A DNA stretch of 64,000 bases from Erysipelotrichaceae bacterium. Lineage in GTDB: Bacteria > Bacillota_I > Bacilli_A > ML615J-28 > CAG-313. Shown one piece after another: positions 32,494 through 38,939 of this stretch; position 1 is the stretch's first letter; each line of letters begins with the position of its first letter. The notes under the pieces are model-generated. The model was given only the letters and a program-made list of their open reading frames with translations. It searched no databases and was not told where the DNA came from. The translations under genes and the position numbers were made by a program. The stretch is taken from positions 62,001 through 126,000 of the forward strand of contig SVBG01000004.1 in the NCBI GenBank assembly GCA_015059015.1, in the 5' to 3' direction.

Positions 32494-32846
32494 AAAACCA
32501 CCTCTTTTTTATACTAATATTATACCAAAATTTCAATCTTTTTTCCACTAATTTGACCTCTCTTTTTTTGTCTCTTTTTTGCCCCTTTTTTCATCTATTT
32601 TTATCATCACTTTTTTCTAGCGATTTTTTCCTATTAAAAAATTGACGTTTTCTATTACAACCCCTAAAAAATCAACGTTTTTTTATTTATTTATGTATAT
32701 TCCTTATTTTTATATATAATTTTTATATTAAATTTTTTTGCTTTTAAAACGTTTAGTTTTTTTATAGTTTTTTTAAAATTTTTCGTCATTTTTGTTGTTT
32801 TTTTAAAAGTTTTTAATTTAAAACTATTTAATAAATTACATACAAC

Positions 32847-32872
32847 AATACAACAATAATTATTGTTGTATT
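32847..32872. repeat. Perfect 26-bp palindrome
   Basis: AATACAACAATAA followed by its exact complement, centred between 32859 and 32860, with no spacer. It is the longest perfect palindrome I found in the gap. Confidence 0.85.
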
Positions 32873-32988
32873 TAAAACAATAAAAAAATAATTATTATCA
32901 TATTTTTATACATTTTACAATAAAAAAATATTTATTTTTGTATTTTTTTATTTAATTAAATAATTACATCAAAAAATAAAATATATTC

Positions 32989-33049
32989 ATATTTAAATAT
33001 TTTTTTATTTATATATTTAAATATGTTTGCATGTTGAATATTTAAATAT
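32989..33049. repeat. Three evenly spaced ATATTTAAATAT palindromes
   Basis: Exact 12-bp copies at 32989-33000, 33013-33024 and 33038-33049, so start-to-start distances are 24 and 25 bp. Even spacing is typical of protein-binding arrays, but AT-rich DNA makes chance copies more likely. Confidence 0.7.
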
Positions 33050-33809
33050 TTAAAAGAGTAACTTTTATTTTTATTGTTTTACATACATAAATAAATATTT
33101 AATAGCGTTTCATAAATAAAAATGTAGAAATTGTTTTATGTAAAAACGTAATTACATAAAAGAAAGACCTACAAAAACTAAATATTGTTTTTAAAATAAA
33201 ATAATTTATTTTTGATTAAAAACTTTAATTAAAATATTTTTTGATTTTTATTTTTAATTCTGTTTTAATTTAAAATTTTTATGTTTTAATTGTTATCTTT
33301 TCTTGAATGTTTGATACAATGGTTTATTTTTAAATTAAAAGTTTTTACGTTTTTTACTTTTAATTTAAAGATTTTTTGTGTATTTTTTTGATTTTTTATT
33401 TATTTTAAAAATATAAAGTTTTAAATTAATATTTTTTTGTGTTTTCGTCTGAAAAATAAAAGTTACATTTTAAGGTTTTACATAAATACATATAACCATA
33501 ATATTTTTTAAAAAACAAAAATAAAAAATTAGGTGTTGTTAATCGCAAAAATAACAGGCTTTTTTTGAGTTTTTAAAAAAGCATTTTTTTTGATTTTACC
33601 CCTAGGGGTGCGAATAAGTTTTAGTTTTTTTTGCAAAAGTTTAAAAAACAGCGCTTTTTTGCCCTTATTTTTAATTTTTGAACTTATTTTTGATTTCAAT
33701 TCGCAAAATTATTTAATTAAAACAATTTTCAGAGATTTAGTCGTTTTATAATAAAATACTTTTTTATGGTTGTATGTATATACTTTTGTAAATAAATATT
33801 GCTAAACAC

Positions 33810-33838
33810 TTGCATTATTTTAATTAAAGTGATATAAT
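33810..33838 (+). promoter_or_regulatory. Promoter of the RHH-parA operon
   Basis: -35 TTGCAT (33810-33815), 17-bp spacer, -10 TATAAT (33833-33838), 31 bp before the RHH start codon. Confidence 0.75.
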
Positions 33839-33869
33839 TTTATTGTATAAATTAAAGGAGGACAATATA

Positions 33870-34274
33870 ATGAATAATTTTCCAAAAAAGAGAACAAATC
33901 CATTTGAAAAACCTATTTCAGCTGTAAAAGAAGAAAAAGTTGAGACAGTTGTTAAGGAAGAACCTGAAATCGAAGAAGAAGTTGAAGAATTAGTTCAACA
34001 AGAAGAAGAAATTGAAGAATATGTTGAACCTACACCAGTTGTAAAGAAGCCAGCGCCTAAACAACCTGTTAAACCAGCACCTAAACAAGCTAGATCAGGG
34101 TCTCGTAATTCTAACGTTTATGTTGAGAGTGATAATAGACTTAAATATACTGCAACAATGGATAGAGAATTACGTAGAAGAATTAAAATAGTGTGTGCAA
34201 CACGTGAAATTATGTTTTCTCAGTTCATTGAACAAGCATGTATTGAAAAATTAAACAGAGAAGGAGATAGATAG
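33870..34274 (+). CDS. Ribbon-helix-helix DNA-binding protein, probable partition partner of ParA
   Basis: A 134-residue protein. Residues 1-85 are low-complexity: a Glu-rich acidic stretch (about 20-50) then a Pro/Lys linker. The C-terminal 45 residues fit a ribbon-helix-helix fold: beta strand LKYTATMD, helix RELRRRIKIVCATRE, turn, helix FSQFIEQACIEKLN. A gene of this type directly before a short ParA matches type Ib partition systems, where a ParG-like RHH protein binds the centromere and represses the operon. GGAGG precedes the ATG at 33870; an upstream TTG at 33843 is not favoured. Exact family is unverified. Confidence 0.65.
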   Translation: MNNFPKKRTNPFEKPISAVKEEKVETVVKEEPEIEEEVEELVQQEEEIEEYVEPTPVVKKPAPKQPVKPAPKQARSGSRNSNVYVESDNRLKYTATMDRELRRRIKIVCATREIMFSQFIEQACIEKLNREGDR

Positions 34275-34276
34275 GT

Positions 34277-35062
34277 ATGCCAATCGTATCAACATTTTGC
34301 AAAAAGGGTGGTGTAGGCAAAACTACATTCATCGGATACCTTGCTCATTACTATGCTAATCAAGGTAAAACAGTATTAGTAATTAGCGCAGATGACCAAA
34401 ACAGTATTTTTAAAATTTTTGGTTGTGAAAACTTTGTTACAGCTAACGATGATGATTTCTTTGAAAATCTTTTAATAGGTGAAAAAAAGCCAGAAGAAGT
34501 AGTTTTTGAAGTTAGACCTGGTATGTATTTAATGAAAACCTTAAATACAGACAGACTTTCTATTAATTTAACGCTAAAAAGGTCAGAAGAGAAGAAATTA
34601 CGCGGTTTAATTGAAGATTTTACTAACTATTTTGATTATATTTTTATTGATTTTCCACCTTCAAGTAGTCGTTTGACAGAAATTTTGCTAGATATTAGTG
34701 AAAAGATACTTCTTGTCGTGGGCTTAGATCCACTTGGAATTGACGGCTATAAGAACACAATTCAGTATTTTGTAGATTGTGACATAGAAATTAGCAAAAT
34801 TAGCCACATAATCCCTATTGGATACCACCCAATTAAGATCACTCCAAACAAGGCTTTGAAAGAGCTAAAAATTTTAGCTGAAAACTACTCTCCAGACGCC
34901 ATAATTGCTACTCCAATCAAAGATAAAGCAGTTATTCAAAATTTACAGTCTGAAGGTATCTCTGTATTCGATAATTACACTATGAAAGACAAGTTTCATC
35001 AAAAAAATCTTAATGAAATCTCAAAAGACCTTACAGAAGTATATAAATCTATCGTTTTATAA
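34277..35062 (+). CDS. parA: ParA-family ATPase
   Basis: A 261-residue ATPase with the deviant Walker A KKGGVGKTT (9-17), SADDQNS (about 38-44) at the switch position, and IFIDFPPSSS (about 115-124). It lacks the N-terminal helix-turn-helix domain of type Ia ParA, so it is a short type Ib-like ParA. It starts 2 nt after the RHH gene. The pair lies opposite dnaN and divergent from yaaA, inside a block that is normally one operon. MinD-like relatives are possible but lack an RHH partner. Confidence 0.85.
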   Translation: MPIVSTFCKKGGVGKTTFIGYLAHYYANQGKTVLVISADDQNSIFKIFGCENFVTANDDDFFENLLIGEKKPEEVVFEVRPGMYLMKTLNTDRLSINLTLKRSEEKKLRGLIEDFTNYFDYIFIDFPPSSSRLTEILLDISEKILLVVGLDPLGIDGYKNTIQYFVDCDIEISKISHIIPIGYHPIKITPNKALKELKILAENYSPDAIIATPIKDKAVIQNLQSEGISVFDNYTMKDKFHQKNLNEISKDLTEVYKSIVL

Positions 35063-35083
35063 GCTATTTTAAGCTTAAAATAC

Positions 35084-35113
35084 AAAAAAAAGCACCAAAA
35101 TTGGTGCTTTTTT
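35084..35113. terminator. Bidirectional terminator between parA and dnaN
   Basis: Stem AAAAGCACCAA/TTGGTGCTTTT with T-runs on both sides, between convergent stops. Confidence 0.85.
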
Positions 35114-35119
35114 GTATTT

Positions 35120-36250
35120 TTAAAATGTTCTTACAGGTATTAATAATTGTTTAAGTTCTATATTAGATTCGCTTGTAATAATAGCAGGCCTAATCTCTCC
35201 TCTAAAATACATAATAATTTCTTGAGTTTCGAACGCTTTTAATGCATCCATAAGGTATTTTGTAGAGAAAGCTATCTGAAAATCTTGTTCTTCACTCACT
35301 TCAATAGGCTTCAAACTTTCAACTACTCTACCAATTTCAGTAGAATTTGATGAAATTTCAATATTATTAGAGTTTTTAGAAAGTGAAAATTTAACAAAAC
35401 TGATGTTTTCTGAATCAATAAATAGTGATGCTCTATTAACAACTGAGATTAATTCTTCACGATTTAACTTAATACTTAATAAAAAATCATTTGGAATTAA
35501 ACTTGATGTGTCAGGATAACTACCTTCAACAAGTCTAGACATGAATGATAAATTAGCTACTTTAAATAATACTTGATTATTTGAAATATAAACATTTACA
35601 TCATCGTTATAATCGTTTAAAATTTTACTGAATTCTTCTAAAGATTTACATGGAATGTTAATTTGAATCTTTGAATTAAAGCCTGAACTTATGCTAGAAG
35701 TTCTTCTAGCTAATCTAAAACTATCTGTTGCGATAACTGTTAATTGATTATCTTTAATAGTTAAATTAATGCTTGTTAAGATTATTCTTTCTTCTGTAGA
35801 TGCACAAGCAAAAGATGTTTGTTTTACGATTTGTTTTAACTCTTTACTCTTTAACACAATTGGTTGTGTATTAAGATCAAAATTAGTATTAGGGAAATTA
35901 TTTTTTTCGTAAGCTCTTAAAGTGAAGTCTGAATTCTTTGAAAGAATTTTTATTGTTGTTTGATCAAATAAAGTTACTTCAACTTTTTCACCTTCAATAC
36001 GCTTAACAATATCTACAAAATATTTACCTGGAACAACACATGAACCATCCTCTATTATATCTAAATCATTAGATGATTCTAATATTACTCTAACTGAGAT
36101 TTCTTTATTAGTTGTTATAAAAGTTAATAAGTTATCTTTAGCTGTTATTTGAATCCCCATTAAAATAGGTAATGGTGTTTTATTAGATAATCCTTTAGAA
36201 ACACTTTGTAATATATTATCTAATAAAGTTCTTGAAATTTCGAATTTCAT
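35120..36250 (-). CDS. dnaN: DNA polymerase III beta sliding clamp
   Basis: A 376-residue clamp that encircles DNA and tethers polymerase III. Three tandem domains of about 120 residues are apparent, with TPLPILMGI near the start, ATDSFRLARR in the second domain and the C-terminal LIPVRTF. Located 72 bp downstream of dnaA. Normal length. Confidence 0.96.
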   Translation of the reverse strand: MKFEISRTLLDNILQSVSKGLSNKTPLPILMGIQITAKDNLLTFITTNKEISVRVILESSNDLDIIEDGSCVVPGKYFVDIVKRIEGEKVEVTLFDQTTIKILSKNSDFTLRAYEKNNFPNTNFDLNTQPIVLKSKELKQIVKQTSFACASTEERIILTSINLTIKDNQLTVIATDSFRLARRTSSISSGFNSKIQINIPCKSLEEFSKILNDYNDDVNVYISNNQVLFKVANLSFMSRLVEGSYPDTSSLIPNDFLLSIKLNREELISVVNRASLFIDSENISFVKFSLSKNSNNIEISSNSTEIGRVVESLKPIEVSEEQDFQIAFSTKYLMDALKAFETQEIIMYFRGEIRPAIITSESNIELKQLLIPVRTF

Positions 36251-37931: not shown

Positions 37932-38939
37932 ATGAATAGAATTTTTAAAATATTAATTTTAATAGTGTATACTTTTGCTATTTTTGCTGTTGCATTTATT
38001 ATCGTTTCTTTAACTAATAAAGGACCTGCGTTTAGTGAATATTCAGATAAAGCTTCAGACGAAAATATTGCAGTTGTAACACAAGTTATCGAAAAAAGAA
38101 AAAATAGTAAACAAACAAAGACTGATTATGAAGAAAGTGTATATGATCTTTATTTTTATATAAAGAAAACATCTACATTAGATTTAAATGATATTTTTGT
38201 TTATATTGCGGTTGAAACTGAAGATGGCGTTAGATATGTTCAATCTACTAGTGGTAAAGAATTGAAAGGTACAACAACAATTACATCTACTATAAGTATT
38301 ACTAATTCTTCTGCTGGAGATTTTGCTGTGAATGAAATTGTTGAAGAGGATGATGTTGTAAAACACATTAACAAAGTTCCTAAAACTGTTTACGTTAGAG
38401 TTTCTTATGATAAAGTAGTTGAAAAACAAGATGTTGCTTGTGAATTAAATTATAAATTTGATTATGATGATGTTGCAAAAGAATCGTTTGATGATTACGA
38501 ACAAAGAGATGTTATTGTAAGTAGTAGTAATACTACGCAATACGTTGATTGTAAAAACGATTATGTATCAATAAAATTCTTAAAAGTTCCAGTTGAAACA
38601 AGTAGTGATGAAGTTAAATATAGTGATTATCGTTTATCTAATGTAAAAATGGTAAAAAGTAATTTACCTGAAGATACTACAATTAGTAAAATAAAAATTG
38701 AAGTATTTGGAGAAATAGGAAACGAATCACTTTTAACAAAAGAATATTTTTCTAAGTATGTTAAGCTATTTGTTTATGAAGGAGCTTTAGCTGCTGATAT
38801 TACAAGTTCAAGAACGGCATCATTAGCTGATGAATATAAACTAGATAAAGTTTATTTTAATGTTGAACTTGAATTAAGTAACGGAGATAAAGCAAATTAT
38901 AAATATTTTGTATTAGTTTCTAACTTATTAGCTAGTTAA
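37932..38939 (+). CDS. Membrane-anchored protein of unknown function between dnaA and rpmH
   Basis: A 335-residue protein with an N-terminal transmembrane helix or uncleaved signal (residues 6-27) and a large outer part predicted to be beta-rich. I do not recognise a known domain. It shares long stretches with the lipoprotein at 42064-43263, for example VSSSNTTQYVD, FLKVPVETS and LFVYEGALAADITSSRT, so it belongs to a local paralogue pair. The position between the origin and rpmH is unusual. Confidence 0.6.
   Translation: MNRIFKILILIVYTFAIFAVAFIIVSLTNKGPAFSEYSDKASDENIAVVTQVIEKRKNSKQTKTDYEESVYDLYFYIKKTSTLDLNDIFVYIAVETEDGVRYVQSTSGKELKGTTTITSTISITNSSAGDFAVNEIVEEDDVVKHINKVPKTVYVRVSYDKVVEKQDVACELNYKFDYDDVAKESFDDYEQRDVIVSSSNTTQYVDCKNDYVSIKFLKVPVETSSDEVKYSDYRLSNVKMVKSNLPEDTTISKIKIEVFGEIGNESLLTKEYFSKYVKLFVYEGALAADITSSRTASLADEYKLDKVYFNVELELSNGDKANYKYFVLVSNLLAS

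Follow-up and report, generated by a model that had tools for sequence, protein, structure and literature searches.

Partition systems of the ParABS type are missing in about a quarter of bacterial species, and how these organisms segregate their chromosomes is an open matter (PMC7333895). Among plasmids, the type Ib systems make use of centromere-binding proteins with an unstructured N-terminal tail that carries an arginine finger and a C-terminal RHH domain, and the operon is preceded by a centromere made up of repeats, both direct and inverted (PMC5016525). In pSM19035 the RHH protein omega recognises 7-bp repeats that lie end to end and overlap with promoters, and four or more of these contiguous units are needed for full activation of its ParA (PMC9499535). 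That an RHH–ParA pair can serve a chromosome is known from the archaeal SegAB system (PMC12284271); of a bacterial chromosomal type Ib system we found no description in the open-licence literature searched.

The locus considered here combines an RHH gene with the gene for a short ParA at a bacterial chromosome origin. Like delta/omega of pSM19035, it has a ParA without HTH, an RHH partner with a basic N-terminal tail, and contiguous short boxes, in both orientations, which overlap the partner's promoter region; it differs in being chromosomal, in forming one operon with the RHH gene first, and in the boxes themselves, which are of an 8-bp TATGTA type and make up a two-part array of up to nearly 3 kb, whereas parS of pSM19035 is built of 7-bp WATCACW repeats. 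With ParF/ParG/parH of TP228 it shares a partner made of N-terminal tail and RHH domain (Pfam ParG matches are weak, E=0.016) and upstream direct and inverted repeats with AT-rich spacers and a second repeat set near the genes (for parH, see PMC5016525), but the gene order is reversed, and the pair is chromosomal and has been inherited vertically across an order. The archaeal SegA/SegB pairs (Sulfolobales and others) are likewise chromosomal, with an RHH partner and palindromic sites near the genes (PMC12284271). Their 13-bp sites (TCTAGA-S-TCTAGA) are scattered and mostly intragenic, and segA comes first, whereas here packed arrays of 8-bp TATGTA-type boxes are confined to the origin, the RHH gene comes first and the host is bacterial (the distinction is one of description, not of SegB sequence). 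Finally, chromosomal ParABS (Soj/Spo0J) resembles the present locus in having a ParA-family ATPase at the origin, with presumably the same job, but its partner is the HTH protein ParB rather than an RHH protein, parS is not found beyond chance in the DNA analysed, the ParA clade is separate from Soj, and the Soj of the genomes of this order is a different, orphan gene.

The RHH–parA operon between yaaA and dnaN

The window (the whole 64,000-nucleotide stretch of DNA that was analysed) lies on contig C8 of a 2.01-Mb genome in 14 contigs, 98% complete, referred to below as G000. Between yaaA and dnaN it carries a + strand operon in which the RHH gene and parA are 2 bp apart (Table 1). The initial annotation had noted that an RHH gene and a short ParA separate yaaA from dnaN on the opposite strand, with a promoter and terminator of their own, and the open reading frames and motifs agree with this. 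Its placement of the pair near the chromosome origin is borne out by GC-skew computation: the minimum and change of sign fall at 34–38 kb, so that the pair is at the replication origin. To call the pair 'inserted' is right when measured against the gene order of Bacillus, but nothing recent should be understood by it, since the order as a whole shares the arrangement. That first account did not mention four things that are taken up below: arrays of 8-bp boxes, a Soj without ParB, the loss of SMC together with ScpA, and a motif conserved at the N-terminus of the RHH protein. No mobile-element genes surround the pair in the list of window open reading frames, and an Rfam search of 32.0–38.5 kb gave nothing significant. 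Further along, between dnaA and rpmH, is an open reading frame of 335 aa (37932–38939) without a Pfam match; it has an 83% match in a relative of the window genome, the goat-caecum MAG 'Bacilli bacterium RGIG1779' (RGIG1779).

Table 1. Features of the RHH–parA locus (window coordinates), with related and orphan loci elsewhere
Feature	Position	Strand	Remarks
yaaA	32272–32493	-	flanks operon
Distal 8-bp-periodic A+T-rich array (putative part of centromere)	32837–33160		tandem repeats with periods 8, 16, 24, 32 and 40, about 32837 to 33054
Distal-array boxes	33080; 33137/33153		latter two 16 bp apart
TACATA box pair	33479–33492		8 bp apart; near end of distal array
Conserved box-free spacer between the two arrays	33520–33720		TTTACCCCTAGGGGTGCGAATAAGTTTT...
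Promoter-proximal array	33765–33804	+	five consecutive 8-bp units, TATGGTTG TATGTATA TACTTTTG TAAATAAA TATTGCTA; ends 5 bp before -35 box
Sigma-70-type promoter of operon	33810–33838	+	TTGCAT (33810–33815), 17 bp, TATAAT (33833–33838); read from sequence
RHH gene (candidate centromere-binding protein)	33870–34274	+	134 aa; ATG start; ribosome site AAAGGAGG; KKRTNPF at residues 6–12, acidic/proline-rich linker, C-terminal RHH domain about residues 90–130
parA (short ParA ATPase)	34277–35062	+	261 aa; starts 2 bp past RHH gene; deviant Walker A CKKGGVGKT, Walker A' DDQNS, Walker B DFPPSS; AAA_31 E=3.6e-21
Bidirectional terminator hairpin with A/T tails	about 35084–35115		common to parA and convergent dnaN; read from sequence
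dnaN	35120–36250	-	flanks operon; convergent with parA
Related f10 ParA pairs	L060 9175–10332; L061 9028–10151		partner with two KR..[NS]PLE motifs; one pair about 8 kb from dnaN
Orphan soj loci	G000:C7:9703–10467 (L033); L069–L074, L077, L078		

The pair is present in 38 of the 43 genomes of the order (nearly all of them fragmented drafts), with ParAs that are 46–99% identical. When 150 relatives were searched, ParA identities of 46–99% were confined to the order (families f1 and f2), those outside being 20–32%. A ParA profile run against 395 Bacilli genomes found matches in 38 members of the order and in two genomes of family f10, and the corresponding RHH profile found matches in 37 genomes, all from the order and each directly upstream of that ParA. 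The dnaN neighbourhood held in all 30 loci checked, and the yaaA–RHH spacer was 1.3–2.8 kb in every locus measured, so the survey of related genomes that the initial annotation had envisaged shows the same location, flanked by yaaA and dnaN, across the whole order. Its absence from the five remaining genomes is explained by the fact that dnaN was not found in those assemblies either (in a search run without a positive control, which a very divergent dnaN could escape, above all in G037). The two f10 genomes are single-contig chromosomes in which a related ParA pair occurs beside a full ParABS, not adjoining dnaN and without a large array; it follows that serving the chromosome is not necessarily the task of the family in every case.

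The assignment of the partner to the RHH proteins would be weak from the single sequence (Pfam RHH_10, E=0.039), but a profile of 29 orthologues matches the solved RHH protein 2KEL with E=1.8e-8, and among the orthologues there are Pfam matches to RHH_3 (2.6e-7), 56B_RHH (2.4e-6), Omega_Repress (9.8e-4) and ParG (0.016). It is the orthologue profile and these member matches that make the assignment safe, and they predict an RHH DNA-binding fold for the C-terminal domain. Of the two fold checks proposed in the initial annotation, profiles gave support; structure prediction was poor and is not used here, AlphaFold giving from two sequences one long helix (pTM 0.25) with low pLDDT across most of residues 1–87. 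In the alignment of the 29 orthologues, a KKRxNP[LF]-type motif stands near the N-terminus, with R8 and P11 invariant and K7 and N10 nearly so, and is joined to the RHH domain by a linker that varies in sequence and in length (roughly 10 to 80 residues). In the two f10 genomes, the protein paired with the related ParA has two copies of this motif, and beyond it that partner shows no detectable similarity to the RHH protein of the order. Being conserved amid variable linkers and doubled in the f10 partners, the motif is the best candidate for a tail that contacts ParA.

In ParA, the Walker A, A' and B motifs are essentially invariant across 29 orthologues, and a Pfam domain search of the open reading frame revealed no N-terminal HTH. 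The initial reading of a ParA that lacks this HTH, and is preceded by an RHH partner, as type Ib-like therefore stands, given the AAA_31 match and the orthologue profile of the partner. Among solved structures, the ParA profile scores highest against Soj from Helicobacter (43 bits) and delta' from pSM19035 (2OZE; 37.5 bits), so that the protein belongs clearly to neither group. In a ParA tree, the ParAs of the order and the two from f10 form a long-branched clade of their own, far from Soj; because of the long branches, we do not interpret the joins to plasmid ParAs. Apart from gene order, the pair has the features of type Ib systems that could be tested. In plasmid parFG the gene for ParA precedes that for its partner, an order that is probably not strictly defining, and here the RHH gene precedes parA. 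As the partition genes of pSM19035 are transcribed separately (PMC5016525), gene order does not appear to be strict in type Ib systems. By analogy, it seems that the pair works like a type Ib system; kinship by descent is no more than a possibility, since no near relative of this ParA was found on plasmids.

Arrays of 8-bp boxes upstream of the operon

Across 27 loci, TATGTA/TACATA boxes occur in the first 150 bp (0–150) ahead of the RHH start, are nearly absent between 150 and 350 bp, and reappear from about 350 bp outward. Family f2 has the clearest array: boxes are present in both orientations, and their intergenic density is 13.3 per kb, control DNA having 0.5–0.8 per kb. Box pairs spaced at 8, 16, 24 or 32 bp number 193, those at other even spacings 3. 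Up to 17–18 clusters of boxes are found across 2–2.7 kb. A palindrome, TACATANNTATGTA, is nearly restricted to the locus: of 65 matches in the f2 genomes, 55 lie no more than about 3 kb from the pair (the pattern read backwards gave about 20 matches in these genomes). It is absent from G000, the window's genome. These packed boxes fit an omega-like mechanism, since omega needs four or more contiguous repeats.

A period of 8 exceeded dinucleotide shuffles in all 21 intergenic regions tested (z 2.3–10.7), the window being the weakest (z=2.3). Boxes that are unambiguous in f2 are degenerate in the window's genome and in family f1. The type Ib feature of direct and inverted repeats ahead of the operon is clear in f2 and degenerate in the window genome, so that the centromere is less certain in the window's own family. 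Period 8 alone is no proof in the window genome, because two coding regions, at 49.9 kb and 61.9 kb, score as high as the array in a window-wide scan. The phased units of the promoter-proximal array recur in f1 orthologues and are stronger in f2, and the window probably has an array of its own, of which the distal A+T-rich repeats would form part. The spacer between the two arrays contains, in the window and at the same place in the 27 loci, a conserved non-coding element (ACCCC..GGGG.....AATAAnTTT....GATTTnA....AAATTT) without an Rfam match.

ParB, SMC and ScpA in the order, and an orphan Soj

The initial annotation had also recommended a look in the genome for Soj, ParB and parS, and this led to a Soj that is an orphan, to no canonical ParB and, within the window, to no parS beyond chance. 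ParB_N (PF02195) is not found in the window's genome, and ParB at chromosomal strength is absent from the order, in which eight genomes have weak matches (best 3e-11); in most other Bacilli families of the class, matches are at 1e-28 to 1e-38. Canonical parS was considered for the window and rejected as not clearly above chance: there are 6 matches, all with 3 mismatches, versus 2.2 expected, and 5 of 100 shuffles reach 6. The condensin search covered SMC and ScpA. It gave no ScpA in the order apart from one 21-bit fragment match, and for SMC weak matches only (best E 3.5e-16, typically 1e-4 to 1e-9), families that have SMC giving about 1e-95 and better. Families f4, f13 and f22, and parts of f7, f10 and f18, are also without SMC and ScpA and have kept ParB, and from f4, f13 and f22 it follows that loss of SMC and ScpA does not force the loss of ParB. 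In some genomes of f7, f18, f20 and f21, strong matches are lacking for ParB and SMC alike.

Soj itself is retained at mnmG–rsmG–soj, with no ParB after it, in nine loci examined from both f1 and f2. Eight of these nine Soj proteins have DEQ or DQQ in Walker A' in place of the usual DPQ, and in most f2 genomes examined (L070–L074) a small membrane protein of about 265–270 aa fills the slot after soj.

A probable plasmid-style system for the chromosome

How might such a pair be employed? From its type Ib-like features, the precedent of SegAB and the missing ParB, segregation of the origin emerges as the most likely role, and we regard it as likely that in this order a type Ib-like partition system has replaced ParABS for chromosome segregation. 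RHH dimers would bind in register along the 8-bp boxes upstream of their own gene, beside the origin, building a segrosome and at the same time repressing the RHH–parA operon. ATP-bound ParA would coat the nucleoid, and on contact with the segrosome the RHH protein, through its KKRxNP[LF] tail, would set off hydrolysis of the ATP bound to ParA, so that sister origins might separate along a ParA gradient in the manner of a diffusion ratchet. RHH–ParA may have taken over once ParB was lost, with Soj staying on without it.

It might instead be supposed that the role of the pair at the origin is to regulate replication or transcription and that it moves no DNA, the RHH protein being an autorepressor or origin-binding factor and the ParA acting on DnaA as Soj does. 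The boxes do overlap the RHH promoter region, the locus adjoins dnaN–dnaA at the GC-skew switch, and Soj/Spo0J of Bacillus modulate DnaA (PMC7022226). However, the 17–18 box clusters over 2–2.7 kb far exceed what an operator needs, the R..P tail joined to an RHH domain has the architecture of segregation adaptors, ParB is missing, and the order already has a Soj that could serve DnaA; we therefore think regulation alone rather unlikely.

The initial annotation had raised the possibility of capture from a plasmid. As a recent event this is not supported, in view of the fixation of the pair across two families, the separate ParA clade and the lack of near relatives on plasmids or in viruses: searches of plasmids and phages yielded only distant ParAs (about 26–31% identity), the plasmid search yielded no relative of the RHH protein, and viral contigs contained no member of the family. 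A recent plasmid or phage origin is accordingly rejected, and an ancient acquisition is possible. Nor does it seem at all probable that the pair, as a partition cassette of a plasmid or an integrated element, became fixed near the origin by chance and has no present role in chromosome segregation; it has the architecture of a plasmid type Ib module, and a related pair lies elsewhere, together with ParABS, in the two f10 genomes, but in the order the motifs are intact, the position is the same in both families, and element genes nearby, RHH relatives on plasmids and viral members of the family are all lacking. Least probable of all is that the ParA positions some other cargo (a membrane or cytosolic assembly, cf. 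McdAB or PpfA), to which the RHH protein would serve as a tether of sequence specificity. ParA relatives do position many cargoes (PMC9178275), and the linker is of variable and often considerable length, but the fold of the partner is a DNA-binding one, and it is at the origin that the boxes are clustered.

Returning to segregation of the origin, it appears, with somewhat less assurance than the replacement of ParABS as such, that the whole order has exchanged ParB–SMC–ScpA for a plasmid-style RHH–ParA system with a dense centromere of 8-bp boxes at oriC, a bacterial counterpart of SegAB. For one group without ParABS, the pair offers a concrete machine, a site and a partner motif, and it shows how a plasmid-type centromere could replace ParB–parS in a lineage that has also lost SMC and ScpA; these bacteria may be sorting their chromosomes as plasmids do.
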